From Branchiostoma floridae (Eukaryota > Chordata > Leptocardii > Amphioxiformes > Branchiostomatidae), in NCBI RefSeq assembly GCF_000003815.2, contig NC_049993.1:10115505-10179504 (forward strand): DNA of 64,000 bases. Direction: 5' to 3'. Positions 1 to 45,800 of this stretch are shown here, piece after piece. A program made the position numbers and the translations under genes. Numbering within the stretch: the first letter of the stretch is position 1; every line of letters begins with the position of its first letter. The notes below the pieces were generated by a model that ran no database searches, had not been told where the DNA came from, and saw only the letters and a program-made list of their open reading frames with translations.

Positions 1-752
1 CATTTCGGACACTTTTCCAAAATCCGCATTTTGGGTCGCGGTTAGGGGGACTTAGCTAAGAACGGGAATAACTCGGCAACAAAAAGAGCTATCTGAAAAC
101 GGATTGCAGCGTTCAACTCCCCACCAAGAGACCTTTCCAATGATACCATAGTTTGCCTATTTCGGACACTTTAAAAAAATCCACATTTTTGTTCGCGGTT
201 AGGGAGACTTAGCTAAGAACGGGAATAACTCGACAACAAAAAGAGCTATCTGAAAACGGATTGCAGCGTTCAACTCCCCACCAAGAGACCTTTCCAATGA
301 AACAATAGTTTGCCTATTTCGGACACTTTTCCAAAATCCACATTTTGGGTCGCGGTTAGGGGGACTTAGCTAAGAACGGGAATAACTCGACAACAAAAAG
401 AGCTATCTGAAAACGGATTGCAGCGTTCAACTCCCCACCAAGAGACCTTTCCAATGATACCATAGCTTGCCTATTTCAGACACTTTGAAAAATTCCACAT
501 TTTGGGTTACTGTAAGCGGTGCTTAACTATAAACGCGAATAACTCGACAACAAAAAGAGCTATCTGAAAACGGATTGCAGCGTTCAACTCCCCACTAAGA
601 GACCTTTCCAATGATACCATAGTTTGCCTATTTCGGACACTTTAAAAAAATCCACATTTTGGTCCGCGGTTAGGGGGACTTAGCTAAGAACGGGAATAAC
701 TCGACAACAAAAAGAGCTATCTGAAAAGGGATTGCAGCGTTCAACTCCCCAC

Positions 753-1016
753 NNNNNNNNNNNNNNNNNNNNNNNNNNNNNNNNNNNNNNNNNNNNNNNN
801 NNNNNNNNNNNNNNNNNNNNNNNNNNNNNNNNNNNNNNNNNNNNNNNNNNNNNNNNNNNNNNNNNNNNNNNNNNNNNNNNNNNNNNNNNNNNNNNNNNNN
901 NNNNNNNNNNNNNNNNNNNNNNNNNNNNNNNNNNNNNNNNNNNNNNNNNNNNNNNNNNNNNNNNNNNNNNNNNNNNNNNNNNNNNNNNNNNNNNNNNNNN
1001 NNNNNNNNNNNNNNNN
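753..1016. other. assembly gap (264 N)
   Basis: Run of 264 N inside the satellite. Its length is not the round 100 used for the other three gaps, so it may be an estimated size. Confidence 0.99.
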
Positions 1017-2185
1017 GACAACAAAAAGAGCGAGCGGAAAACGGAAGGCAGCGTGCAACACCCCACTTTGAGACCTTTCCAATGATACCATAGCTTGCAT
1101 ATTTCAGACACTTTGAAAAATTCCACATTTTGGGTTACTAAATCTCGGCAACAAAAAGAGCTATCTGAAAACGGATTGCAGCGTTCAACTCCCCACAAAG
1201 AGACCTTTCCAATGATACCATAGTTTGCCTATTTCAGACACTTTTAAAAAATCCACATTTTGGGTTACTGTAATCGGTGCTTAACTTTAAACGCGAATAA
1301 CTCGGCAACAAAAAGAGCTATCTGAAAACGGATTGCAGCGTTCAACTCCCCACCAAGAGACCTTTCCAATGATACCAAAGTTTGCCTATTTCGGACACTT
1401 TTAAAAAATCCACATTTTGTGTCGCGGTTAGGGGGACTTAGCTAAGAACGGGAATAACTCGACAACAAAAAGAGCTATCTGAAAACGGATTGCAGCGTTC
1501 AACTTGCCACCAAGAGACATTTCCAATGATACCATAGTTTGCCTATTTCAGACACTTTTAAAAAATCCACATTTTGGGTTACTGTAATCGGTGCTTAACT
1601 TTAAACGCGAATAACTCGGCAACTTTAAAAAATCCACATTTTGTGTCGCGGTTAGGGGGACTTAGCTAAGAACGGGAATAACTCGACAACAAAAAGAGCT
1701 ATCTGAAAACGGATTGCAGCGTTCAACTTGCCACCAAGAGACATTTCCAATGATATCATAGTTTGCCTATTTCGGACACTTTTCCAAAATCCACATTTTG
1801 GGTAGCGGTTAGGGGGACTTAGCTAAGAACGGGAATAAGTCACAACAAAGAGAGCTATCTGAAAACGGATTGCAGCGTTCAACTCCCCACCAAGAGACCT
1901 TTCCAATAATACCATAGTTTCGCTATTTCGGACACTTTTAAAAAATCCACATTTTGGGTCGCGGTTAGGGGGACTTAGCTTAGAACGGGAATAACTCGAC
2001 AACAAAAAGAGCTATCTGAAAACGGATTGCAGCGTTCAACTCCCCACCAAGAGACCTTTCCAATGATATCATAGTTTGCCTATTTCGGACACTTTTCAAA
2101 AATCCACATTTTTGGGTCGCGGTTAGGGGGACTTAGCTAAAAAACGGAAAAACTCGCACAAAAAAAGAGCTTTCAAAAAACGGAT

Positions 2186-2285
2186 NNNNNNNNNNNNNNN
2201 NNNNNNNNNNNNNNNNNNNNNNNNNNNNNNNNNNNNNNNNNNNNNNNNNNNNNNNNNNNNNNNNNNNNNNNNNNNNNNNNNNNNN
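2186..2285. other. assembly gap (100 N)
   Basis: Exactly 100 N inside the satellite, probably a placeholder of unknown true length. Confidence 0.99.
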
Positions 2286-4175
2286 AGATGTGGTTAACTT
2301 TAAACGTTAATAACTCGACAACAAAAAAAGCTATCCGAAAACGGATTGCAGCGTTCAACTCCCCACCAAGAGACCATTCCAATGATACCATAGTTTGCCT
2401 ATTTCGGACACTTTTCAAAAATCCACATTTTGGGTCGCGGTTAGGGGGACATAGCTATAAACGGGAATAACTCGGTAACAAAAAGAGCTATCTAAAAACG
2501 GATTGCAGCGTTCAACTCCCCACCAAGAGACCTTTTTAATGATACCATAGTTTGCCTATTTCGGACACTTTTCAAAAATCCACATTTTGGGTCGCGGTTA
2601 GGGGGACTTAGCTATAAACGGGAATAACTCGACAACAAAAAGAGCTACCAAAAACGGAATGCAGCGTTCAACTCCCCACCAAGAGACCTTTCCAAAGATA
2701 CCCTAATTTGCCTATTTCAGACACTTTTCAAAAATCCTAATTCTAAGTTGAGGTTAGATGTGGCTAACTTTAAACGGTAATAACTCGACAACAAAAAAAG
2801 CTATCTGAAAACGGATTGCAGCGTTCAACTCCCCACCAAGAGACCTTTCCAATGATACCATAGTTTGCCTATTTCGGACACTTTTCAAAAATCCACATTT
2901 TTGGTCGCGGTTAGGGGGACTTAACTTTAAACGGGAATAACTCGACACCAAAAAGAGCTTCCAAAAACGGATTGCAGCGTTCAACTGCACACCAAGAGAC
3001 CTTTCCAATAATACCATAGTTTGCCTATTTCGGACACTTTTCAAAAATCCTAATTTTAAGTTGAGGTTAGATGTGGTTAACTTTAAACGTTAATAACTCG
3101 ACAACAAAAAAAGCTATCTGAAAACGGATTGCAGCGTTCAACTCCCCACCATGAGACCTTTCCAATGATACCATAGTTTGCCTATTTCGGACACTTTTCA
3201 AAAATCCTAATTTTAAGTTGAGGTTAGATGTGGTTTACTTGAGACGTTAATAACTCAACAACAAAAAGAGCTATCTGAAAACGGATTGCAGCGTTGAGCG
3301 CCCCACCAAGAGACCTTTCCAATGATACCATAGTTTGCCTATTTCGGACACTTTTAAAAAATCGCCATTTTCGGTTACTGTAATCGGTGCTTAACTTTAA
3401 ACGCGAATAACTCGGCAACAAAAAGAGTTATCTGAAAACGGATTGCAGCGTTCAACTCCCCACCAAGAGACCTTCCAATGATACCATAGTTTGCCTATTT
3501 CGGACACTTTTACAAAATCGCTCATTGGGGGTTACTGTAATCGGTGCTTAACTTTAAACGCGAATAACTCGGCAACAAAAAGAGCTATCTAAAAACGGAT
3601 TGCAGCGTTCAACTCCCCACCAAGAGACCTTTCCAATGATATCATAGTTTGCCTTTTTCGGACACTTTTAAAAAATCCACATTTTGGGTCGCGGTTAGGG
3701 GGACTTAGCTAAGAACGGGAATAACTCGACAACAAAAAGAGCTATCTGAAAACGGATTGGAGCGTTCATTTCTCCACCAAGAGACATTTCCAATGATACC
3801 ATAGTTTACCTTTTTCGGACACTTTTCCAAAATCCACATTTTGGGTCTCGGTTAGGGGGACTTAGCTAAGAACGGGAATAACTCGACAACAAAAAGAGCT
3901 ATCTGAAAACGGATTGCAGCGTTCAATTCCCCACCAAGAGACCTTTCCAATGATACCATAGTTTACCTATTTCGGACACTTTTAAAAATTCCACATTTTG
4001 GGTCGCGGTTAGGGGGACTTAGCTAAGAACGGGAATAACTCGACAAAAAAAGAGCTATCTGAAAACGGATTGCAGCGTTCAACTCCCCACCAAGAGACCT
4101 TTCCAATGATACCATAGTTTGCCTATTTCGGACACTTTTACAAAATCCACATTTTGGGTCGCGGTTAGGGGGACT

Positions 4176-4875
4176 TCAGTGCTGAATATGGCTTCAGCAC
4201 TGGATTTCCAGTGTTGAATGCTCTCTCACCACTGGAAACGCCTGCTTCAGCACTGGAAACCGAGTGCTGACGAACATTCAGCACTGGAAACCAAGTGCTG
4301 ACAAGTTTTCGGTGGTTTTATTCGGATGTTATAGCAAAGGACCAGGCGTTATGACACCATATACACCTCGGGGCGGGTCATTAACCCTTAATACATATCT
4401 GCCTACCTTCAAGTGAACCATCGAATTTACGTCTAGTGCCGCTCTCAGCACTGGGAGATTCCAGTGCTGGAAAGACGTCAGCACTGGTTCGAACATCGTT
4501 CCAGTGCTGGAAAGACGTCAGCACTCGTTTTCCAGTGCTGAAGATTTCACAGCACTGGTTTTCCAGTGCTGAAGTGTCCCCGAGCACTGGTAAATCCAGT
4601 GCTGAAGGTGAGGTTTTTGTATATCAGCACTCGGTTCCAGTGCTGACGGCGAATTCAGCACTGGGCAATCAGTGCTGAATGACATTGACCTGGCCCGGCC
4701 CCGCTGTCCCCGGATTTCAGCACTGGTAACCGAGTGCTGACGGCAGTTCAGCACTAGAAAACCAGTGCTGTGCGAGTTTCAGCTCTGGAACAAGGCCGAT
4801 CAGCACTGGAAAACGAGTGCTGAAATAATTTAGACCGTTTAGACAATTGAATCAGCACTGGAACACCAGTGCGGA
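4176..4875. repeat. phased array of 24-bp palindromes
   Basis: About 14 imperfect palindromes of the form TCAGCACTGG-N2-8-CCAGTGCTGA, with starts near 4194, 4247, 4278, 4445, 4478, 4518, 4549, 4581, 4624, 4655, 4717, 4748, 4800 and 4852, plus half-copies at 4176, 4226 and 4779. The typical copy is 24 bp with a 7-bp spacer. Start-to-start distances cluster at 31-33 bp (31 at 4247, 4518, 4624 and 4748; 62 at 4655), and 21 bp occurs twice. Each unit can fold into a hairpin with a stem of about 10 bp. The stretch 4302-4444 has no copy. The array begins where the satellite stops. Function unknown. Confidence 0.85.
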
Positions 4876-5446
4876 AGGCGAGGTTTTCGTAGACTTGCGC
4901 TAGGAATGTCAGAAACATATCATTTTCTAATCTGGCAAATATGTGACCTTTGCCATGTTTTGGCCTGTAGTTGAACGTTGAATAAGAACCCAGCGTATGG
5001 ACTGACACATTATTAATGTGTCATTAAGACAAGGTGAAATCCTGGTGCTATTTTAAATCTTCTGGCTGCAGCTCATTAAACCCGGGGGTTGACCTTCCAC
5101 TTTTTGAACAACATGCTGTCCTATACACCAGAGAGGTCTAATTTCTAGTGGTTCTGATAATTCAGCATTATGCAGAGCTCTTGTTTTTGCACAGTTCACA
5201 GACATCGGAAATACGAGATAATAATGCAAATATGCTGGAAAGTGGTTGTAACGTCATGTCATTTGCATGAATGTTTTGTACTCCAGAATATTTTCAATTT
5301 TGGGACTATATATATAGTGCAGCTTTAACCATGTATTTATCGCATGCATTGGGAAGTTAAAATTGGTAGTCCCTTCATGGTCTATGCAACGCCAGGTCAA
5401 CTAACGTTAATACATCCCGCTCAAGCGCCCCCCTCCCCCATCCAAC
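4876..5446. other. no gene seen
   Basis: Non-coding stretch. I see no exon with splice sites and no recognisable repeat other than the last part, a C-rich tract (5425-5440) that corresponds to the start of intron 1 of the adjacent minus-strand exon. Confidence 0.6.
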
Positions 5447-5553
5447 CTTATTCCTTCCACCTCCAGAACCACGTCAGTCAGCTCTGCCTGCTCCCTCAGT
5501 TTGTTTAGCTCATCCAGAACACTGTAAGAGTGATCTTCGTGCATGACGTTCAT
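5447..5553 (-). CDS. orphan first coding exon of a kelch-like (KLHL) paralogue
   Basis: On the minus strand an ATG at 5553 opens a 107-nt exon that reads MNVMHEDHSYSVLDELNK and then LREQAELTDVVLEVEG, ending at a GT donor (5446-5445). It has the same length and phase as exon 1 of the complete kelch-like gene at 15687-15793 and shares its REQAELTDVVLEVEG core, the start of a BTB domain. The similarity continues upstream: sequence at 5637-5668 (cctttgacctactgtgatat) resembles 15888-15915 before the LINE interrupts it. No later exon is visible at lower coordinates, where the palindrome array and satellite lie. It is either the 5' end of a gene continuing outside the window or a relic of a duplication. 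The frame is open. Confidence 0.65.
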
Positions 5554-6632
5554 ATCTAATTCTGTCTGGGGGACCGAAACGAAACGAAATTCTTCCTACA
5601 CAGTGTCCGTCGGTGACAAACACGTTGTTTTTTTTACCTTTGACCTACTGTGATATCTGATAATCCATATACCTAATCCTCTTCGCTCCCTTTGGTGGAG
5701 CATAAGGCACTGACGAACTTCTTCCAGTCCTTCCTATCTTGGGCCATCCATCTAACTTCATGCCAGGTCTTACGTGCTGCCTTCATCTCCCCTTCAACCG
5801 TCCTTCTCCAGGTCCCTAGAGGCCTGCCTCTGCTTCGCTTCCCTTGAGGGGTCCATTTGAGGGCGACATAAGGGTGTCTGTTTTTGTGCATACGCAGCAC
5901 GTGCCCCAACCACTTCCAACGTCTGCGTTTTATTTCCTCAACGATGTTGGGAATTCCTGTACGTTCGGCAACCTCCTTGTTGGAGACTCTTTGCTCCCAA
6001 CGTATTTTCAGGATTCCCCTGAGGCATCTACTTTCAAAACCCCTAATGCGCTGCTCGATCTTTTTATTTGTTCTCCAAGTTTCTGCTGCATATAGAAGGA
6101 CTGAACGGACGTTTGATCTGTATATCCTCAGCTTGGTCTTTTGCTTCAAGGTCGATGCTTTCCAGATGTTTCTCAGCTTGTTAAAGGCTTGTGCTGCCAT
6201 CCCAAGGAGACTTCCTTCTCTATGTTGCTGTCAGATGAGATGTAGCTACCAAGATACTTAAAGTCCTGTACTTCCTCTAAGTCCTGTCCACGAATGGTCG
6301 TCTTTACTGTACTCTTGCTCTTTACTTTTAATATCTTGGTCTTATCTTGGTGTGTCTTGAGGCCCACACTACTTGCTTGTTGGTCCACGTTGTTTGTTTT
6401 CTCTTGTATGTCTCTTTGCGCGTGTGACAGTAGAGCTATGTCATCTGCGAAGTCGCAGTCTTCCAATCTGGATGTGAGACCCCAGACAATCCCTCTTGGA
6501 TGTCCTGCAGTGGCTCTTCTCATCACCCAGTCGATGACGACAAGGAAGAGAGTAGGTGAGATCACACATCCCTGTCCATCCTCACACTCAGGGTTGACAT
6601 CGCGGCAAAGCCTAACGATATCACCCCTGACA

Positions 6633-7148
6633 AATCAGCCAGGGTATTTGGGTATTTGGGGCGCCCTGCTTATGAATATTAATGAGCTTGCCTGATTTGT
6701 CGCGGGCCAATCAGCGACCGGATTGCAAGTTTCGAACAAACAGCGTACGGCGCGGCGTGTACAAAGATCTGTATTTCTTTGCGTGATGGTAATGTTTTTT
6801 TTATCGTATGCTAGGTCGGTACATATATACTGTGATGCCGTGGTTACCCTATACCCACAGAACCGACAAATGTTAAATTTGGTACCTGATAAAGACGTCT
6901 GGACGCTGAAAGAACGTTACGCCGGTAACGTTCTAACTGTAATCGTGCTCCCGCCAATTCATGATGCGCCTTATATGCAGTGTTTCTGAGCTGAACATTT
7001 CATTCACCGAGAGACCGAGAAGCGCTGTCTGCCTTGGCACGTCTGATTGCCTCAGGTTTAACCGGGTGGTACTACAGCCCTCCTTCCTCCAGCTGTCACT
7101 GCTCCAGCTCCGGTCCCTGCTTGACAGCGATGATCTGATGACCACCTC
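6633..7148. other. foreign sequence interrupting the LINE
   Basis: Sequence between the two halves of the LINE reverse transcriptase. The part near 6670-6690 (ccctgcttatgaatattaat, then gagcttgcc) resembles 42031-42056 and 44261-44286 in the nrf-6-like intron, so it belongs to a dispersed repeat. A short inverted pair, gacaaatcag (6629-6638) and ctgatttgtc (6693-6702), brackets it. From about 6960 it becomes kelch-like intron and exon sequence. It borders the 100-N gap, so a scaffold misjoin is possible. Confidence 0.55.
7056..7148 (+). pseudogene. partial kelch-like (KLHL) exon, BACK-domain start, cut by a gap
   Basis: After a good acceptor (ctgattgcctcag, AG at 7054-7055) the plus strand encodes FNRVVLQPSFLQLSLLQLRS and then LLDSDDLMTTS until the gap at 7149. 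This is nearly identical to the start of exon 4 of the kelch-like gene at 12239-12829 on the other strand (FNQVALQPSFLQLS). The similarity also includes intron sequence before the acceptor (ctgaacatttcattcac, about 6992-7008, matching about 12883-12899). It is a second copy of that locus in inverted orientation, within the span of the LINE. It could be a duplicated gene fragment, part of an intact paralogue hidden by the gap, or an assembly artefact. Confidence 0.7.
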
Positions 7149-7248
7149 NNNNNNNNNNNNNNNNNNNNNNNNNNNNNNNNNNNNNNNNNNNNNNNNNNNN
7201 NNNNNNNNNNNNNNNNNNNNNNNNNNNNNNNNNNNNNNNNNNNNNNNN
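7149..7248. other. assembly gap (100 N)
   Basis: Exactly 100 N. It separates a plus-strand kelch-like exon fragment from minus-strand LINE sequence, so the join across it is unsupported by the sequence itself. Confidence 0.99.
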
Positions 7249-9223
7249 CAACGATGGTGCGTAGGACAAAGATCTGGTCTAGACATCCCCGGCCACTTCT
7301 AGATCCGGCCTGTTCCTCTCTCAGTATCTTGTCAATGGAGCGTCTTGTACGCTGTAGTAGGACTCGACAAAAGATCTTACCTGTAACTGACAGGAGATTA
7401 ATACCTCTCCAATTTCCACAAACCGATAGATCACCCTTCTTTGGCAGTTTTACTATTATCCCTCTTTTCCAAGCTTCTGGTACCGTTTCTTCGTACCAGA
7501 CTTGGTTAAAGAGTGTTATTAGACCTCTGGCAGTTGCTACTGGGTCTACTTTCAGCATGTCAGCTGTTACTCTATCTTCACCTGGGGCTCTGTTTGCCTT
7601 CGTTTCTTTTATGGCATTTACAATCTCCTGAAGTGTGATAGGACCACGTTTCATCTCTATGTTAAACCCCATATCCTCGATGGTCGCTTCGGACTAGGGG
7701 GGAGGTCTGTTTAATGTTTCTCTGAAGTGTTCTGCCCATCTGTCCAACTGGTCTTTTCCCTCCATGAGTACTTTCCCGTTCTTGTCTTTTACTGCTGCGG
7801 CCCTGTTTTTGAGATCTCCTGATAGCTGTTTAGTGATTTTATACACGGTCCTAGTATCACCCTTCTCTGCTGCTTGTTGTGCCTCAGTTGCTAAGCTATC
7901 CATATACACACGTTTGTCTCTTCTGGCACTTCTTTTCACTTCTTTGTTCTTTGCTTGGTAGGTCTTGGCTGCTGCAGCCCTCTGTCTCTCGCTTCCATTC
8001 AACATGTGTTGCTTAGCTGCCTTCCTTTCTTGTACCAGGTTCCAAGTGGTCTCTGATAGCCACTCCTTCCTCTCTCGTTTACGGTATCCTAGTACTGCCT
8101 TACTGGTATCTGTAAAGACTTTGTGTATATCCTCACATCTGGCATTTATGTCATCAACCGGTATGTCCTCGAGTACCTGAAACCTATTCTTGAGCTCCAC
8201 GGTGAACTGTTCCTTTGCCGCTAGGTCTTTGAGCTTCCCAGAGTCGAAGAGTGGATCATTCTTGACCTTGCTTGCCTTCCTAAGTTTCAGTTGTAGTTTG
8301 CACAACATCAGGTGGTGATCGCTGCTTGCATCAGCACCTCTAATGGCCTTGACGTCTCTCAAGGTTAAGGACTTCCTCCACTTTCGGTTGATACATATGT
8401 GATCAATCTGGTTACTCGTTCTCCCATCTGGGGATACCCAAGACAGCTTGTGGATGTTCTTGTGCTTAAAGATTGTGCCCCCGATGACAAGACCATTCTC
8501 CATGCATACATCTACCAGTCTTTGACCATTGTCGTTCCTCTCACCGACACCTTCTTTTCCCATGCAGGCTTCGTAACCTACATTCTCTGTACCGACTTTG
8601 GCGTTGAAATCCCCCATCAGGATGAGAATGTCGTGCCGTGGAGTTTGGTCTATCTGGTCCTGAAGGCTGCTGTAGAAGAGATCTTTGTCCTCTTCCGTTG
8701 CCTGTTCGGTTGGCGCGTAACATTGAATAATGGTTGTCTTAATGTATCTTGAATAAAACCTCGCTCTTATAATACGCGGACTAACTGGTTCCCATCCTAG
8801 CAGGCTTTTCCTTGCCTCTTTGTCCATGATAATGCCTACGCCTTCCTGGTGTTGACCATCTGTCTTACCTGAGTAACAGACTGTTTGACCTGAGTTGAGC
8901 GTTATCATGCCTGAGTCTGTCCATCTCATTTCGCTTACACCAAGGATACTCAACCTGTACCTCTCCATCTCTTTTACGACTTGTAGTGTTTTGCCTGTCT
9001 CGTACATGGTTCGCACATTCCAGGCTGCAATTCTAAGTGGTTGTTGGGGTGTTGCCAAGGACTCCCTCAGAACGGAAACTTCCTCTCGGCTTTCATTTCC
9101 ACTCGTCATGTGGGGTTCTGCCCCAGTCATCAGTTCCACGCCCGAAGAAGAATAACTTTCTAAGTTCGTCAGCGTTTCAGTAGCACTGCAACTTTCACGT
9201 GGCGGGATGCTGACCCAGCGCAC

Positions 9224-9430
9224 AACCTTCTCTCTTTCACATCCGGGCTTGGGACACCGGCAACGGCGGAGTTGGATCCTCCATTTGGCGACTACCCAAT
9301 TTCCACCCCCTCATTCGAGGTTACAGAGTAGGAACTTGCCACCTACCCCAGGACAAGGAAATTGGTACATTCGGGCCCTCACACCACGACAAGGCTGGAG
9401 GATCGGGAGCCGATGTTTGGGCTCCCAGTG
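9224..9430 (-). mobile_element. probable 5' untranslated region of the LINE
   Basis: GC-rich sequence directly upstream of the LINE ORF on the minus strand, continuous with it and ending near gggctcccagtgagggat at about 9420-9437. No gene frame fits here. The 5' limit is a guess because I could not find flanking target duplications. Confidence 0.45.
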
Positions 9431-10332: not shown

Positions 10333-13300
10333 TCAGTCGTTATCAGAATTTTCTTCATCGCTGTCGTCTTGGTCCGAGAGATCTTGCTGACTGTCATCAG
10401 TGGTTCCACTTCCGAAAGAATCCTCATCAGAGGTTATCTCCAGGCCCTCGTACATGCTTGTATCCCCCGGACTCCTCTGGATCATCCTTGCTGCCAGGCA
10501 GTCTACGCTATTCCCAGATTTGAAGTGTGCCAGGGGAGGAATCAGCCTGCGCTTAAAGGCCTTGTCTGTAATAAACAGCCAGGAGTCTGCATCTGTCTGG
10601 TACTGGTGGACATTAATCCAGCGCTGCGTCGGTCGTCCAAATATGCGGTCATGTTCGATGTGTGCAGTGATGAGATACAGGCTTCCGTCGTGCTTCATCA
10701 GGGTTGAAGCGAGGAAGGCAAAAGTCTCGCCGTTCCCAGACCGCTTCCATACGCCGTCGGCGGGGTCGTACATTTCTACACAAATGGGGTCAGAAGAAAC
10801 AGCCGATGGTTGATGACTGTCCATACAGAAAATGCGCCCCTGACACGTGACAACCCGAGGACGCACTGGTGGAAACAACATGTCCGCTATCTTACTCCAC
10901 TTGTTCTCTGGGGTACTGAAAGCTGTAGCAACCCTTCCTTACTTATAACATAGATGCTGTCATCCAGAGTCACAGTACAGAATTGTAGGAATCCGCTCAT
11001 GGGGTGAGGGATAGGTGGCATGGACGTCCACTCATCAGTGCTGGGGTCGTATCTCTCTGCTGTTCCCTTGGTGTTATCACCACCAATAGCATAGATGTAG
11101 CCCTTCAGATGCACCAGACCACACCTGGGGAAGAATAGGAAACAATAGACCAAATCAAACCACACACACATGTACTGCTTTTGTCATAGATACACAAGGG
11201 TGCCTGAGTATTCATACAATCCTTACAGAAAACATCAGTCCTTACAGAAAACATACCACCCTTACAGAAAACATGCGATCCTTACGGAATTTTAACTCCA
11301 CTACTAAAAAAAGGAGGAAACAAACAATTCTTACAGAAAACAATTATGATCCTTGCTAATTCCACGTGATTAAAGAAATTAGTAAGGATTATGTTTCTTA
11401 TAAGTGGATGGAATATTTTCCATAACGATCATCTTGTTTTTCTGTAAGGGTCATAATTATGTTTCTTAGTAGTGGATGGCATGAACTTCATAAGGATCAT
11501 ACATTTCTTAGTAGCGGACCGTTTAGATTCCGTAATGATTGTTTGTTCTCTGTAAGGATCATATGTTTTCTGTAAGGATTGTAATATGAATGCTTACTGC
11601 AGGCATCCCTGATACAGGGAATTTTGCTCACAAACTGTGCACGTCTGTAAACAACAGATTGGTTCAAATGACATTCCCAAAATTCTGCCAGTTCTTACAT
11701 CCTTCCTCGTCCCCCACCATCCAGTTATTATAAAATGAGTTTGAATTGGACAGTTCTTGAAGCTTTTCATCATACTGCTGTCAGTCGTTTTGTTACTTGT
11801 GTTAAATCTGGCTGGACAGACAACTGCATTTTCAAGCTAAGCTGCAAATGCTGCAAGTTTGCTCCTGCAATTATTGTAGTACTAATTAAGCCCTCACCTC
11901 TTCCTGATACAGGGAAAGTTATTCTAATGTCCATTCCAGCTCTATGAATTTGTTTTTAAAAAATTCCAATGTTCCCTGCATCTCTATAAACTTGAGAATT
12001 GCCTATCATACATTATAAATTAAATCACATGAAATATTGTGCACATATAGTTTTGCATCTTTCCTACAACTGTTTAATTTTTTTTCAATTTCAGGGCCTT
12101 TCTCATTTATCCAGATACAACCTGAAATAAAGTATGCACCTGAACTTTGGCAACAACCTTTTGGATTTAAAAATGTATAGTTTAAAAAGTGCGTACTTAA
12201 ATTGAGAAAACATTGTAATGTGCAAGAGAAAGACGTACCCAACTCTGGCTGAAATCATCTCACACCTTGGTTCCCAGGTGTGTAAGAGTTGGTTGTACTG
12301 GTAGAATGCCTTCTGCCTGCTAACCTTCTTGCTGCCCCTAACACCCCCTGCCAGGTACAGATCATCAGGAGTGGATGTCAGAGAGAAACTGCCCAGGTTC
12401 CTGGGCATATTGATTACATCCAGCCCACCTGTGGAGGGGTTGTAGCAAGGAGCAGACCACTGGGAATAAGAATCATCCATTAAATCATCTTGTACCTCTA
12501 TTGGCACTTCTGGTACAATCTGCATCTCCGTTCGCACCTGACCTAGTCGCTGGGTTGTGCTTTTGCTGAAAACTAACTCGCCGTCTGTCGATGGGCGCCT
12601 ACTCTTGATTTCGGCATGCTTTTCTGAGCTAATAAGCGAACGGCGGAATGATTTGCACAGAGCAGGAAGGTGTTTCAAGCGCTCATCTTGGTTGAATTCG
12701 ATCCATCTTAGAGCGGCTACAACGACGTCGTCTTCTGAGGTGGTCATCAGATCATCGCTGTCAAGCAGGGACCGGAGCTGGAGCAGTGACAGCTGGAGGA
12801 AGGAGGGCTGTAGTGCCACCTGGTTGAACCTGGGGCAGTTAGATGTGCAATGGTTTAATGCACTGCTCGATCTCACTGTGAATGAAATGTTCAGACTATG
12901 TACAATGTATATGATGCACAAAATGAACTGGTGGGTGTACTACTAAGTATCAGCTACGAAAGAACAAGAAATAGTCATACGTTCAAATACCATATTTATC
13001 AAAGTGAAAATAGAATTGTAGTGTTCTAAATCAATTTTCCTTAGAACTATCATAGAGAGGGTCTCATTGCCACTAAAAACTGTAGGAGCAATTCCTTGAA
13101 GTAGATTATTAAACTTTAATTTAAAGAGCATTTCCATTGCTAATGTTAGGAGTTATAGGTCATTCGGTGTGTTAAAAAAATACATGTAACCAGCTGCTGC
13201 TGTGCCGCATGCTTGCGAAGCTGGTGTCTTACATCAAAGGGTGTGTGGGTATGTGGTTATACTGGCTACATTGATATAGATATAGAATTGATTTTCTTTC

Positions 13301-30846: not shown

Positions 30847-33800
30847 CTATTTCTTGAAGACGACTTTCTCCACCCCCATCAGTGGTGACTCCACCGCCAC
30901 AGACACCAGGAAGCCCATACCGAAGGATAGAGCCAAGTGCCCCAAGAAGAAGTAGATCTGAAAAAAAATTCAAAGGGATGTTAAAAGTCAGCTAACCGAT
31001 GTTTATGAGAGAAGAGACAAAGGTTTGCAAAAGAGCATTTTCGGAGATATTCAAGTCCTAGCCTCTACCAGGCTCCGCGGATCGCTGGTCAAATAATAGA
31101 ATGTAGTTATGTCTTGTGTTGAATAGACAGGTTGTTTTAGTTGAATTATAACCTTATTTGATTACTTCTACGTTTGTATGCCAGCTACACGTCACTTTGT
31201 TATTTGATTTCTTGTTGTTTTATTTCACGTCGTTATCATTATCTCTTGACTTTGTTATGTAGCCATGTATACGTATGTATGTCCTTATTTTGTTTATGTA
31301 CATGAGGAGAAGACCTCGATAAGCAGGGTCTGCTTTCCGTCTCATTCTCTTTAAAGAAATGTGAATAAAAAAAATAAAAATAATAGAACTTGAACAAATA
31401 GAGCAAATAGTATTGCTATGGGAGCATTGACTCATCTTGCCGACTGACTGCCCTAGTATTCTATTTCCTCTATTCGTCCAATCTCTACTATTCAACCAGT
31501 CATCCACGGAGCCCGCTAAAGGCTATTCAAGTTTCGCTAGTTTGTCGGATGGACCGGTTTTTGTCTATTTCATTTCACCAAGAATGTTGTGGAAAATTCG
31601 ACGATTGACCCGCTGGTGGATTACCAGGATTCCAGATTGTAAGAGGTACATATTTTTATGCTTTCTTCTTGTTTGCTCTTTAGTTTGGCAAAGCTGATCA
31701 TGTCTTTTTTTAGTAAACCCATCACTTATATTCGGATTTTTGTTAAACTGATGTGCTTTGTAAGTCTTAATGTCTGTGTTTTGTTTTTATTTTGTATGAT
31801 TGCTGTAGGAATGTTTTGATTTTTTATTTGTTAATTTCTTGTCTGTAATACTGATATGATGCTCAATTATTCATGTATAAGCTTTTAGACGTTCGTGTGT
31901 TGTGTTCCCATGTTCCGATGTTTAGGTTTGTGTAAGCTAATGTTGTATTTGAACATTGCAAGTTCTGATGTTTTTGTGAGTTGTATTTGTAAACATTGCA
32001 AGTTCTGATGTTTTGTGGGTTGTATTTGTAAACATTGCAAGTTCTGATGTTTTGTGTGTTGTATTTGTAAACATTGCAAGTTCTGATGTTTTGTGTGTTG
32101 TATTTGTAAACATTGCAAGTTCTGATGTTTTTGTGAGTTGTATTTGTAAACATTGCAAGTTCTGATGTTTTGTGTGTTGTATTTGTAAACATTGCAAGTT
32201 CTGATGTTTTGTGTGTTGTATTTGTAAACATTGCAAGTTCTGATGTTTTTGTGAGTTGTATTTGTAAACATTGCAAGTTCTGATGTTTTGTGTGTTGTAT
32301 TTGTAAACATTGCGAGTTCTGATGTTTTTGTGAGTTTGTTAATATTATTAAGATAGTGAGATCTTTATGTGTAACGTGTGTTACTTATATTTGATGTGTT
32401 TATATTTGTAATTTTTCGTTTTTGTCTTTGTAAGACTTCTGATTTTGTTGCTTATGGGAATGGTTGAGTAAATGACAAATGTTAATTTGTGATATTTGTA
32501 AAATTGAAAACCAGGGAATGAAAACCCTGCACAAAAGTCCTAGGGAAAATCCAGTGGGATAAAACAGCCCTGTTAAAAAGTCCTAGGGAGCAACCCTACC
32601 CAAAAAAGCCAGTGTGAATGGCCCCTGCAACAATATATAAATGTGTTATAGTATATAGTATTGCATGTGTCTAGATGGTTGAGTAAAGGTAGACCATTGT
32701 GTAAAATGGTAAGAGAATGTTAGTGTAAATATTTCATAATGATTGTTTTTAGGTGTGTATAATTTGTCTAGTGATACAACTGTCTAGGTGAATAGCTTTC
32801 AATGTTCTGTACTTTATGATTTGTGAATAAAAATGTAACAAGATCAGTTGACCTGAGTTGACCCAACCATCCCCCTGATCACAGCTTCCTATCAGTTGAC
32901 CTGAGCTCAGCCGGCCCAACCATCCCCCTGATCCTGGGACTTGACCCAAATTCCATTTCACATTCATTGAGGCTAACATTCCATACATGCCTGTGGAAAC
33001 ATGCGTAGCATGCCTGTGGAAACATGCCTGTACAATTCCTAGAATTTGTGCAGAGACTGCAGACTGAACATAATATATATCATTGGGCTCGCCCCTGAGG
33101 CGTCGCCAAAAAAACTTCTTGTTTTTGTTTTTACAGAATTGTACACTAACGTACCATAGTGAAAGTGCTGTAGTGGATGGGCACCTCCATGGTGAAGTAG
33201 AAAGCAAACACCACGGGAACATGCATGAGGTAGGTGCAGAAGGTCAGTCGGCTCAGGGGCACCCAGCCGTCCCAGGAGAGGATGGTGTTCACCACTCCTG
33301 TAGTGAGCAGAATACATCACAGCGGTCAATAAGAATTATCACGGAAGCTCATCTGTGTAGGTAGTAATCATAGTGCAATGCTAAACTTTCTTCCAACACA
33401 AAGGTATACACGGATCAAATTTTCAACTACCACTGTCGCCTTCGTTAGAACCAATAATGATCAATACCAATAGTGATGATCCTGAAGAAGGCGACAGTGG
33501 TGTTAATTTGATCCGTGTATACCTTTGTGTTGAATGTAAGTTTATCATGGGACTTGGTCCATGGGAACTAGTAGTCCAATTCAGCAGGGAGTTATGTTGT
33601 ATTTCTGCGTACAACATTTATAATTATATGATACCTTCAGAGAGTGCACCTCATAAAATGAGGATAGTATCCGGATGATGCTTGAGCACTGCTCTGACGT
33701 ACTGTTTGACAAAGAGTAAAGGACAGTTTAAAAGTACTGCAATAACGGAAACAGCTGTCGCGCTAGAGATGGAATCATCCAAAAATTCATATGTCAAATT

Positions 33801-39800: not shown

Positions 39801-42800
39801 ACGTCACTTCCAGCATCCCCTGCTGGATAAGGGCACGCCAGTAGATACCTGGAAAAAACAACAAAGATGCTTGTCTTGGTCTTGAGTGACTAGTTTGAAG
39901 CCAAAACGACTAAATTTTAAAAGATTCAGTCTAGCCTATACTTGAATCATCTGCATTGGTCGTCAGTATTTGCTAAATAATTGCTAAGATTGAATATTTA
40001 ACATTGAAAGATTATGCTGGAAGCGACAATAGTCCCTGACCCGCAAGATGAGGATGGGACGAGGTGGGGTCAGGTTGAAAAGTGCATGATCAAGAATTGG
40101 GCACGTTTTTTACACGTTCTATCGACAGCTTTATAAAGTATGAGCGAGATTCGAAGCCAGGCGTACCACCGTCCAGTCTTTCAATGACGTCTTGTTGGCT
40201 ACAGGAACTGGGCACGCAGACGGCCACCGTTAACTCGCCTCCGCCCTATTAAAACAGCAGCATGAGTTTAGTCTCCAAGCAGACCCTACGGTGCCTTAGA
40301 AATAGTATCAAAGCTGGTATAGTGGTGCCCGTTTGACTCCCTTTGGCCGGCTATCTCCATTTGGCCGGCTATACTCCTTTGCCAGCTTTGATACTATCTC
40401 TTTAGGCACCGTAGGGTCTGTTTGGAGACTAGCATGAGTTAGAATTGTTTCATTTGTTTCGTGTGAGGTAGACACTTTTTAAGCTTGGAGAAAAATGTAA
40501 CACACGCATTCGTACAGAGCATCTCCGCCTCTGAAAATATACATCATCATCATCACCCGGTAGTTCAGACGCCTCCAACGACAGTACCTCCTGGAGACAT
40601 TGTATCAGTCTTATCTACAAACATCTTGGCTAAGATCCTACTCGATATTTTACTGTGTATGTATTTGTATTCTTGTATTGTATATTTCTATATCTACTGT
40701 TGTCATTTGATATGGGTCAAGTGCTTGAATTAAAGATGAAAATAATTCATAAGAGAGATTTGAATTTTCAATTCATGTGAAAAAATGTGACATCTGCATG
40801 CAACTTCATTTATAAAGGCATTTTGTCAACCACTGCGACTTTTACACACCTGTGTTGTCTGTTGAACAGGTATACTAATGTAGTCATGTAGAACTCACCT
40901 GTGTTGTCTGTTGAACAGGTACTAATGTAGTCATGTAGAACTTCCCATCGAAGGTGATGTTGAACCCTTTCCTCGTGATATTCACGCACTGGTAGTAGCT
41001 ACCGGTCCAGGCCAGGTTTCCGCCCAAGATTCCGCTCGGTGGTTTTCCACCCGCGTCCAGCACTGTTAAAGAGAGGAGATGCCATCATTTCGCCCTACAA
41101 ATTAACCCATGTACCAGGACAGTCTTCTGATTGTTGGGATGGAAACGAATTCATTCCGTCTGTCAAATACAATCTGAAGCTCATGACATGAAAATTGTAG
41201 TTTCGAAAGCTAGGTCATGGATGTAACGACAAAAACTAGCAACATGGGATTGCAAACAATGAGTGGGACAGAGAAAAATGAATACATTTAAAGATGGAGC
41301 CAGCCCTGGTATGTACAGTCAACAACGTTATCTTCATACTCACGCCCCTTCTGATAAACGGAGCAAATTTAACTGTAAAACCAAACAGACTACAGGATCT
41401 TTGACCCGTATTTTTTATATAAGAGAGAAAACAAGCGTGGGGTCGCGTGGCCCTTTCCCCAGAGGTCATGGGTTCAAATCCGTTGATGTGTCACCGACCT
41501 TGTGCCCTTGAGAAGGGCACTTTACACGACTTTCCTCACTTTACTAAGGTGTGAACGAGTACCTATATCTAGTTATTGAGGGACGTCCCTTGGATAGGGC
41601 ATTAAATGGAGGTCCTGTGTTTGAGAAAAGCTACATCTCGAGGTCGTAAAAGAACCCATTACAATAATCGAAAAGAGTAATGGGTTCGGTGTAAGTTGTA
41701 AAAAAGAATATCGACCAAATCTGACCGGATATGCAGCTTGTACTCTTCTGTACAAACCTGGTATGTTACGGCATATTACCTGATCTTTGCTCCGTCGTTT
41801 TTATAGAACTTTATTGCGCAACGATCGTACACGGTACAATGTATACACATACAGTCCCGCAACATTCGGGATGGTTTCTTATACCCTCTCCGTTTCGGCA
41901 TACCGTTAAATATTTAAAGATGGAGGTAGCCCTGATATGTACCATTCTCCTACGCAGTGGGACCACAGTCGTGTCGAAAATCCTTGGGGTCACCTCTGCT
42001 ATCTGACGCACCCAGACCAGTTCCTAGCCACCCTGCTTATAAATATTAATGAGCTTACCCTTATATGGGCAGTCAGCCGTTGGGGATCGGGCGCAGGAGG
42101 ATGGTGCTATGTAAGACGTAACATGATTGGCTGATAGCTTCCCAGCGGCCTTTGCGAGATGGCTTTCGTAAACAGAAAGCCCAAGAAATGCCTATTCTCT
42201 GATTGGTTGACAGCTGGTTTGTGGCGACAACCATAGTAACCGTTGGTAGGCCATGAGATAGCAGGGCCCCAATAGGCAGTTAGCTAGCCGTTGGGAACCG
42301 TGCGTAGGAGGATGGTATGTACAGGCAACAGATGTTGAAGAGGTTTGCCGAGTCATTGCTCCCCCTGTGTCCTGTCTTACATAAACCATGCATCGATCAA
42401 AGATCAGGTAGTATGTAGCACACTTGAGTGACCTGGATGAAGTAACTGGTATGTGTAAATATTGCATAAAAGTGTGGTGGATTAAGTCGATCGCATACAT
42501 AATTACACCTAATCATGTATCAAACAGTGGATGCATTCGAGAGTGGAATTTGTTATCACCAAGCACAGTAGGGGCATCATATCTGGATAGTTTTAAAGAA
42601 CGCTCGCAGATAGATGTGCAAAAGTTAGGTGTGATGGATCGTTCAGTAATATAACCAGCTGCTGCCGCACCTCGTGCCTGCGAAGCTGGTATGTTACGCC
42701 AAATGGCGGTTATACCGGCTATATAGATACAGATCTATACAGAAGCTGGTGTGTTACGCCGAAGGGCGGTTATACCGGCTATATAGATACAGATACAGGT

Positions 42801-45800
42801 ACAGAAACAAGTTATACAAAGGCAGAGACAGCCCTAGTATGTAAAGGCAACAAATTTTGAAGAAGTTTGCCGAGTCATTGTGCCCCCTGTCTTATATAAG
42901 CCATCGGGCAAAGATCAGGTAGTATGTTTGTCTTGCATAGCTCCACTTACTTGAAGGCGCGTGCGTGATTATGACGATTTAAAGTGACCTAAATAAAGTA
43001 ACTGACATGTGTATAAATCGGCGCTGTATGAAGTCAATCGCAGGTATAATTACACCTGAGCATATATCAAACATAAAGTTATAAAATTACACCTTAAAGC
43101 AATCCTACAGGCTACATGACAAAGGACGATTTTCATTCCAACGACAAAGATCGTTCCGCAACATTCGGGATGGTTTCATATCCTCTCCCTTCATGCCACT
43201 CAAATCCTTAGCGCTGACTTACACGAAAGCCATGTCCAACTAAAGGGCTAACTATAAGGGCTAACTATGATGTACCGGTCCTCAATGCCTGACGTCTTTA
43301 GATATTACCGCCTTTTTCTTAATATTTTCACTATGACTGTAGCTGGCACCAAGTAGGATTAGACAGACGTACATGTTTTCAAAACCTGGTTCATGTAGCT
43401 TAGAATGTTCTCAGGACATTTGAACGAGTGCTGACGGGCATGCTAGACAGAGATGTCTGAAACAGCAGCATCCGCTGGCACCCGAGTCGAGAATGAACTG
43501 AACGCTGAGACTTGTATCCCAATGAACCTAGTCTCCAAGCAGACCCTACGGTGCCTAAAGAGATAGTATCAAAGCTATCAAAGGAGTAAAGCCGGCCAAA
43601 GGGAGATAGCCGGCCAAAGGAAGCCAAACGGGCACCGGAGCAAGCAGACCCTACGGTGCCTAAAGAGATAGTATCAGTGGCCCTTTTCCCAGAGGTCCTG
43701 GGTTCAAATCCGCTGATGTGGCACCGACCTTGTGCCCTTGAGAAAGGCACTTCACACGACTTTCCTCACTTTACTAAGGTGTGAATGAGTACCTATATCT
43801 AGTTATTGAGGGACGTCCCTTGGATAGGGCATTAAATGGAGGTCCTGTGTTTGAGAAAAGCTACATCTCGAGGTCGTAAAAGAACCCATTACAATAATCG
43901 AAAAGAGTAATGGGTTCGGTGTAAATTGTAAAAAAGAATATCGACCAAATCTGGCCGGATATGCAGCTTGTACTCTTCTGTACAAACCTGGTATGTTACG
44001 GCATATTACCTGATCTTTGCTCCGTCGTTTTTATAGAACTTTATTGCGCAACGATCGTACACGGTACAATGTATACAATACAGTCCCGCAACATTCGGGA
44101 TGGTTTCTTATACCCTCTCCGTTTCGGCATACCGTTAAATATTTAAGATGGAGATAGCCCTGATATGTACCATTCTCCTACGCAGTGGGACCACAGTCGT
44201 GTCGAAACTCCTTGGGGTCACCTCTGCTATCTGACGCACCCAGACCAGTTCCTAGCCACCCTGCTTATAAATATTAATGAGCTTACCCTTATATGGGCAG
44301 TCAGCCGTTGGGGATCGGGCGCAGGAGGATGGTGCTATGTAAGACGTAACATGATTGGCTGATAGCTTCCCAGCGGCCTTTGCGAGATGGCTTTCGTAAA
44401 CAGAAAGCCCAAGAAATGCCTATTCTCTGATTGGTTGACAGCTGGTTTGTGGCGACAACCATAGTAACCGTTGGTAGGCCATGAGATAGCAGGGCCCCAA
44501 TAGGCAGTTAGCTAGCCGTTGGGAACCGTGCGTAGGAGGATGGTATGTACAGGCAACAGATGTTGAAGAGGTTTGCCGAGTCATTGTTCCCCCTGTGTCC
44601 TGTCTTACATAAACCATGCATCGATCAAAGATCAGGTAGTATGTAGCACACTTGAGTGACCTGGATGAAGGAACTGGTATGTGTAAATATTGCATAAAAG
44701 TGTGGTGGATTAAGTCGATCGCATACATAATTACACCTAATCATGTATCAAACAGTGGATGCATTCGAGAGTAGAATTTGTTATCACTAAGCACAGTAGG
44801 GGCATCATATCTGGATAGTTTTAAAGAACGCTTGCAGATAGATGTGCAAAAGTTAGGTGTGATGGATCGTTCAGTGTAATATAACCAGCTGCTGCCGCAC
44901 CGCGTGCCTGCGAAGCTGGTATGTTACGCCAAACGGCGGTTATACCGGCTATATAGACACAGATACAGAAGCTGGTGTGTTACGCCAAACGGCGGTTATA
45001 CCGGCTATATAGACACAGATACAGAAGCTGGTGTGTTACGCCGAAGGGCGGTTATACCGGCTATATAGATACAGATACAGGTACAGAAACAAGTTATACA
45101 AAGGCAGAGACAGCCCTAGTATGTAAAGGCAACACATTTTGAAGAAGTTTGCCGAGTCATTGTGCCCCCTGTCTTATATAAGCCATCAGGCAAAGATCAG
45201 GTAGTATGTTTGTCGTGCATAGCTCCATTTCCTTGAAGGCGCGTGCGTGATTATGAGGATTTAAAGTGACCTAAATAAAGTAACTGACATGTGTATAAAT
45301 CGGCGCTGTATGAAGTCAATCGCAGGTATAATTACACCTGAGCATATATCAAACATAAAGTTATAAAATTACACCTTAAAGCAATCCTACAGGCTACATG
45401 ACAAAGGACGATTTTCATTCCAACGACAAAGATCGTTCCGCAACATTCGGGATGGTTTCATATTCTCTCCCTTCATGCCACTCAAATCCTTAGCGCTGAC
45501 TTACACGAAAGCCATGTCCAACTAAAGGGCTAACTATAAGGGCTATCTATGATGTACCGGTCCTCAATGCCTGACGTCTTTAGATATTACCGCCTTTTTC
45601 TTAATATTTTCACTATGACTGTAGCTGGCGCCAAGTAGGATTAGACAGACGTACATGTTTTCAAAACATGGTTCATGTAGCTTAGAATGTTCCAGGACAT
45701 TTGAACGAGTGCTGACGGCCATCTAGACAGAGATGTCTGAAACAGCAGCATCCGCTGGCACCCGAGTCGAGAATGAACTGAACTGAACGCTGAGACTTGT

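Follow-up and report, generated by a model that had tools for sequence, protein, structure and literature searches.

Helically phased imperfect palindromes in Branchiostoma floridae DNA, a candidate array of sites for a dimeric protein

Positions 4176 to 4875 of a 64-kb stretch of Branchiostoma floridae DNA (the window, meaning the whole stretch analyzed) hold an array of imperfect palindromes whose half-sites keep to the helical turn of DNA, even across irregular gaps. Our best explanation, which rests on the sequence and to which we give about even credence, is that these palindromes are binding sites for a homodimeric DNA-binding protein, with an origin in a mobile element or a virus the likeliest. 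Two features of a helix-phased array of dimer sites were present here, namely, a repeated site with two-fold symmetry and spacing by whole turns.

The array was delimited by its half-sites. With up to two mismatches permitted, positions 4176 to 4875 contained 31 of them, 16 left (TCAGCACTGG) and 15 right (CCAGTGCTGA, the reverse complement), in agreement with the location given in an initial annotation of this DNA. At one mismatch or fewer, 30 half-sites fell in the array compared to 3 in the remaining ~63 kb of the window, and five Markov simulations of 63.3 kb yielded 1 to 6. A pattern of three half-sites matched eight times in the window, with all eight matches in the array, and none of 100 shuffles had any. 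The 31 half-sites pair into 14 complete palindromes, the approximate copy number noted previously, plus three partial units that the half-site search placed at 4176 (R-only), 4226, and 4779 (both L-only). The array is also the densest 700-bp bin of the whole window for short hairpins of any sequence, with 16 compared to 8 in the runner-up, which contains a TA microsatellite. DNA folding of the array gave a z score of −22 against 20 shuffles.

The units lie in three blocks, and by loop type (the loop rule) they can be called forward or reversed. The left block (4176 to 4301) comprises the R-only unit at 4176, a palindrome at 4194 to 4217 with a T-rich loop, the L-only unit at 4226, and palindromes at 4247 to 4270 and 4278 to 4301, both with A-rich loops. 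A 143-bp interruption (4302 to 4444) follows, within which half-site-like scores are weak only and of which no further copy was found elsewhere in the window; the left half-sites that flank it are 167 bp apart, or 16.0 turns. The middle block (4445 to 4646) contains six palindromes (units at 4445, 4478, 4518, 4549, 4581, and 4624), includes the loops of atypical length, and has four of its six palindromes reversed (4478, 4518, 4549, and 4624). In the right block (4655 to 4875), all five palindromes (4655, 4717, 4748, 4800, and 4852) are forward, having A-rich or GCAA loops, and the L-only unit at 4779 lies among them. The longest listed open frame through the array (4385 to 4678, 97 amino acids) had no Pfam match, and a coding reading was set aside.

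Conservation is concentrated in the arms. As initially annotated, most palindromes are 24 bp: 10 of the 14 have exactly this length (10 + 4 + 10), and the other four, with loops of 3, 5, 6, and 13 bp, measure 23, 25, 26, and 33 bp. Only 16 mismatches occur in the 280 positions of the 10-bp arms. Arm positions 5 to 8 (CACT) are invariant in 28/28 arms, positions 2 to 4 and 10 match in 27/28, and the variable positions are 1 (consensus in 23/28) and 9 (21/28). The spacers that separate a right half from the left half after it, previously described as variable and of about 7 bp, measure 7 to 8 bp in 10 of 14 cases, and their sequence is nearly random. Compared with random 7-mers of the array (identity, 0.25; standard deviation, 0.018), the mean identity of the 7-bp spacers was 0.24 for those preceding left halves and 0.30 for those following right halves. 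The latter value is ~2.7 standard deviations above random, so the spacers retain some shared descent. The neighbors 4445 and 4478, for instance, have the spacer GAAAGACG in common. Units 4581 and 4852 share a 17-bp flank that differs at 3/17 places, while their arms differ at 3/20, so no added constraint on the arms is apparent in this pair. No mismatch in any of the 14 palindromes compared was accompanied by a compensating change in the opposite arm; the mismatches break base pairs or convert them to G-T pairs.

The spacing of the units fits a placement on nearly one face of the helix. Left-to-left gaps along the array are 32, 21, 31, 167, 33, 40, 31, 32, 43, 31, 62, 31, 31, 21, and 52 bp. 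The initial annotation had put the spacing mainly at 31 to 33 bp, with 62 bp where a unit is missing; this describes 8 of the 15 gaps, and the 62-bp gap is present, but the rest are 21, 21, 40, 43, 52, and 167 bp. Divided by 10.45, the gaps correspond to 3.06, 2.01, 2.97, 15.98, 3.16, 3.83, 2.97, 3.06, 4.11, 2.97, 5.93, 2.97, 2.97, 2.01, and 4.98 turns, meaning that the irregular ones also fall near whole helical turns. We scanned periods from 5 to 45 bp and obtained a best period of 10.44 bp for the left half-sites (coherence, 0.934; n = 16) and 10.46 bp for the right half-sites (coherence, 0.906; n = 15), two tests that are not independent of each other. Deviations from the 10.44-bp grid are no larger than 1.4 bp for any left half and 1.7 bp for any right half, and the palindrome centers gave the same period with a coherence of 0.82. 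The period of 10.44 bp was retained in all 16 leave-one-out sets of left half-sites. Relative to the usual 17.4 bp, the longer spacers carry an excess of about 10.6, 20.6, 30.6, and 135.6 bp, and the long loop contributes 9 bp more.

We compared this phase with several nulls. When the irregular gaps were jittered by up to 5 bp, the left value was reached in 0 of 5,000 trials and the right value had a P of 0.0008; with jitter up to 15 bp, the left value was reached in 6 of 20,000. A null in which the irregular gaps were assembled from steps of 31 and 10 bp, with noise of 2 bp, gave a P of 0.013. The previously suggested check for a period of 31 bp, or of 31.5 bp, came out poorly, with coherences of 0.23 and 0.10 over the whole array, because the irregular gaps break such a period, while the 10.44-bp grid holds throughout. 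The proposal that all sites occupy one face of the helix is borne out more strongly than by the regular 31- to 33-bp steps alone, because the irregular gaps fit 10.44 bp as well.

The palindrome has no perfect copy. With a loop of 1 to 14 bases permitted, the perfect consensus form, as it had been annotated, had no match, and none of the 14 palindromes is free of arm mismatches: 12 have exactly one and 2 have two. This count covers the 14 complete palindromes and leaves out the three partial units, each of which has lost its partner half. Permuting the mismatches by column and arm gave P values of 0.0005 for zero perfect copies and 0.0006 for at least 12 with exactly one mismatch (0.0019 and 0.0021, respectively, with the arms folded), all of which are too small because the units are related by descent and because the mismatch at position 9, found in 7 of the 14 palindromes, may be largely one inherited event. 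The excess was also spotted post hoc. Its plain reading would be threshold selection on the palindromes, in which one error is tolerated and two are not, and the many possible one-error sequences outnumber the single perfect one. If the site behaves in this way, an excess such as 12/14 is what we would expect.

The palindromes may carry an orientation. The position-9 variant CG or CA is found in the right arm of four units with A-rich loops (4247, 4278, 4717, and 4800) and in the left arm of two units with T-rich loops (4518 and 4624). Loop type and the arm of this variant therefore agree in 6/6 units, which is why the units may have direction; a seventh unit, 4748, has another change at position 9 and does not fit. 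We dropped a division into three clean orientation blocks (+, −, +) because the loop rule makes 4194 reversed and both 4445 and 4581 forward. Clustering of orientations into blocks is weak. The 14 palindromes form 6 runs compared to 7.4 expected (P = 0.19), and a set of 13 units chosen post hoc (adding 4226 and 4779 and omitting the ambiguous 4445, 4478, and 4581) forms 4 compared to 6.5 (P = 0.04). Two inverted matches were seen inside the array: 4245 to 4302 matches 4517 to 4574 over 58 nucleotides at 84%, and 4800 to 4823 is the exact reverse complement of 4518 to 4541. A CRISPR array would have direct repeats and unique spacers about as long as the repeat; the array does not fit this description, as its spacers are 7 to 8 bp in 10/14 cases and the units seemingly occur in both orientations.

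The initial annotation had already suggested dimer-binding sites that share one helical face. The phase test speaks for the layout it proposed, as do the conservation of arms beside near-random spacers and the absence of compensation; from these computed features we infer the protein itself, its dimeric state, its cooperativity, and selection on phase. In our model, each 24-bp imperfect palindrome would take one dimer. Dimers mostly three helical turns apart would lie on one DNA face with neighbors in contact, and their binding would be cooperative and would bend, coat, or loop the DNA. The reader of the array would be a protein on double-stranded half-sites rather than on a hairpin, since the arms are conserved next to near-random spacers, the phase continues through irregular gaps, and the mismatches are uncompensated. 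The array may derive from a cis-acting terminal region, either of a DNA transposon or of an integrated DNA virus, and now sits amid satellite, a broken LINE, and kelch-type gene pieces. We consider such a source the likeliest; a mobile element is preferred because animal transposases make use of palindromes close to element ends and because a foldback MITE-like element (11206 to 11590) lies in the same window. The protein could belong to the transposon, to the virus, or to the host.

Several observations weigh against this binding-site model. Because the units share descent, P values that assume independence are too small, and some of that descent is left in the spacer identity of 0.30. The flank of the 4581/4852 pair is as diverged as its arms. 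The P of 0.013 under the null of 31- and 10-bp steps leaves room for a mechanical origin. The motifs of the element at 11206 to 11590, many of them ~20 bp apart, are nevertheless off the 10.44-bp period, which argues against a general phasing rule. Of the 109 open frames listed, 10 were scanned, and these contained neither a transposase nor a viral protein; no terminal inverted repeat outside the array was found among the inverted pairs listed (25 of 50) for 3600 to 6000 or in a self-search of the flank. A more elaborate version of the binding-site model has a lineage-specific animal dimer forming a one-sided filament on a dedicated phased array, in which selection would have given each site one perfect and one slightly imperfect half-site, a counterpart of the Epstein-Barr virus (EBV) repeats that arose through domestication of a mobile element or virus; we regard this version as unlikely.

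The main rival of the dimer-site array is a neutral satellite of the foldback type, which we consider somewhat unlikely. Here, template switching at hairpins would have copied and inverted a 31-bp unit with a self-complementary core, and the phase would follow from steps of about 31 and 10 bp, 10 bp being the length of a half-site. Much of the pattern could arise from such hairpin-based copying and inversion. In its favor are the 58-nucleotide inverted match and the exact reverse complement, the position-9 variant that follows loop type in 6/6 units (apart from 4748), the GAAAGACG spacer common to 4445 and 4478, the 157-bp satellite that adjoins the array, and the two 21-bp gaps, each equal to a unit minus one half-site. 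However, even the null made of these very steps reaches the observed phase with a P of only 0.013, the orientation blocks are weak (6 runs against 7.4), and copies with similar arms should have similar spacers, which in this array are mostly dissimilar. Selection on pairing itself, as in a hairpin RNA or cruciform array, would account for the folding z score of −22 but is disfavored by the lack of compensatory changes and of perfect pairing in 14/14 palindromes; with no Rfam match in 3900 to 5700 at gathering scores, we judge it very improbable. A host enhancer or silencer with REST or large-Maf sites is scarcely credible. The motif TTCAGCAC resembles the left half of RE1, and TGCTGA resembles a Maf half-site, which were the hints offered in the initial annotation. 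Neither hint was supported, as we found no match to the 21-bp RE1 with its two half-motifs at up to three mismatches, and the only two MARE-like matches at up to two mismatches sit outside the array, at 9208 and 47420. Furthermore, the TGCTGA half-sites are mostly 7 to 8 bp apart across spacers, and a Maf element has TGCTGA and TCAGCA separated by 1 bp.

Two further proposals concern the specific origin of the array. The palindromes may be subterminal repeats of a nonautonomous DNA transposon and thus putative transposase sites, an idea that is compatible with the dimer-site array and that we hold as a tentative possibility, short of an even chance. Animal transposases do bind palindromes near their ends, as described for piggyBac and piggyBat in PMC11707139, and the window contains a foldback MITE-like element with a repeated motif at 11206 to 11590. 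The lack of a terminal repeat among the inverted pairs listed tells against this origin, although ends may lie elsewhere, as do the lack of a second copy of the array within the 64-kb window and the fact that the motifs of the 11.2-kb element are unlocked from 10.44 bp (coherence, 0.38 and 0.28; n = 5 each). No target-site duplications were noted around the array on inspection by eye. We think it quite unlikely that the array served an integrated DNA virus in replication or maintenance, as an element comparable to the EBV family of repeats or the baculovirus homologous regions (hr). The likeness is one of layout, to the 30-bp EBV units in two inverted regions (PMC3218044) and the 30-bp imperfect palindromes bound by IE1 in baculoviruses (PMC2834656). 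The frames scanned held no viral protein, however, and the three-half-site pattern had no match in the viral contig collection. In prokaryote contigs, the same pattern matched twice (Colwellia and Alishewanella), each time as an isolated single match in the ~500 or 700 bases around it, and we took both matches as chance.

Palindromic-site arrays at near-helical spacing are familiar from viruses, but we know of none from an animal chromosome, and to our knowledge the palindrome motif matches no factor. In open-access papers, none of the matches listed dealt with this motif or with a helix-phased palindrome array in an animal genome; five papers that matched short motif strings were taken, judging from the listing, to contain them by chance. 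The closest layout is that of the EBV family of repeats at oriP, the sites of EBNA1. According to PMC3218044, these are 30-bp units with a palindromic core, some off consensus, present in 29 copies in B95-8 and oriented in two mutually inverted regions. Palindromic units, a possible orientation, and a layout of ~30 bp are shared with the amphioxus array. The EBV core is TAGCATATGCTA, however, in 30-bp units of a viral genome, whereas the amphioxus spacers are near-random, the steps follow 10.44 bp, the orientation blocks are weak, and a viral gene is absent from the frames scanned. In PMC2834656, baculovirus hr sequences consist of 30-bp imperfect palindromes whose intact form is required for enhancer function, and the title of a reference cited there describes IE1 as dimeric; hr3 has 3 palindromes in 651 bp and belongs to insect viruses.

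Among mobile elements, piggyBac and piggyBat also have imperfect palindromes, located near an end and bound by two cysteine-rich domains of a transposase dimer, as stated in PMC11707139. PiggyBat, as described there, has three at one end, 44 bp apart and paired with a GCGGGA motif, in contrast to 14 palindromes here, for which ends were not found. In Tetris, a foldback transposon of Drosophila virilis, the inverted arms contain tandem subrepeats from which satellites can arise (PMC4079207), but those subrepeats are ~220 bp, and terminal repeats were not found around our array. Amphioxus mirages are minisatellite-like arrays, described in a lancelet, that duplicate intron-exon boundaries (PMC3087553); our array differs in having palindromic units. 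In PMC5802833, palindromic repeats are noted where a lancelet opsin exon ends.

Should selection maintain the phase, the array would point to a candidate dimeric DNA-binding protein with cooperative assembly and would itself be a ready probe with which to isolate that protein. Should the array be neutral, it would show how duplication driven by hairpins can produce a look-alike of a regulatory array, a useful caution for motif searches.

The surroundings of the array are rich in repeats. A 157-bp satellite, its period close to 15 helical turns, runs from 2 to 4176, with runs of N at 753 to 1016 and 2186 to 2285, and stops at the array's first half-site. On the other side, a different palindrome lies at 5003 to 5023, ~128 bp past the array, with 20/21 positions self-complementary, the center excepted. 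Within the flank (4875 to 5700), the DNA from 5427 onward has a match in the tandem repeat at 15.1 to 15.8 kb. Next comes a minus-strand LINE (5673 to 9310), whose endonuclease, reverse transcriptase, and DUF6451 matches fall in separate frames; beyond it are kelch, BACK, and BTB genes or fragments. The foldback or MITE-like element at 11206 to 11590 is ~380 bp long and has 21-nucleotide arms that are 100% complementary. Its motif CCTTACAGAAAAC (at least 9 of 13 bases) has five forward copies in the left part and five reversed copies in the right part. Farther along, two nearly identical frames of 106 amino acids (42192 to 42512 and 44420 to 44740) lie ~2.2 kb apart, with similar tandem repeats beside them at 42682 to 42794 and 44912 to 45080; from sequence, this looks like a recent local duplication. 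A 39-bp tandem array at 31941 to 32332 contains ten copies with 95% matches.
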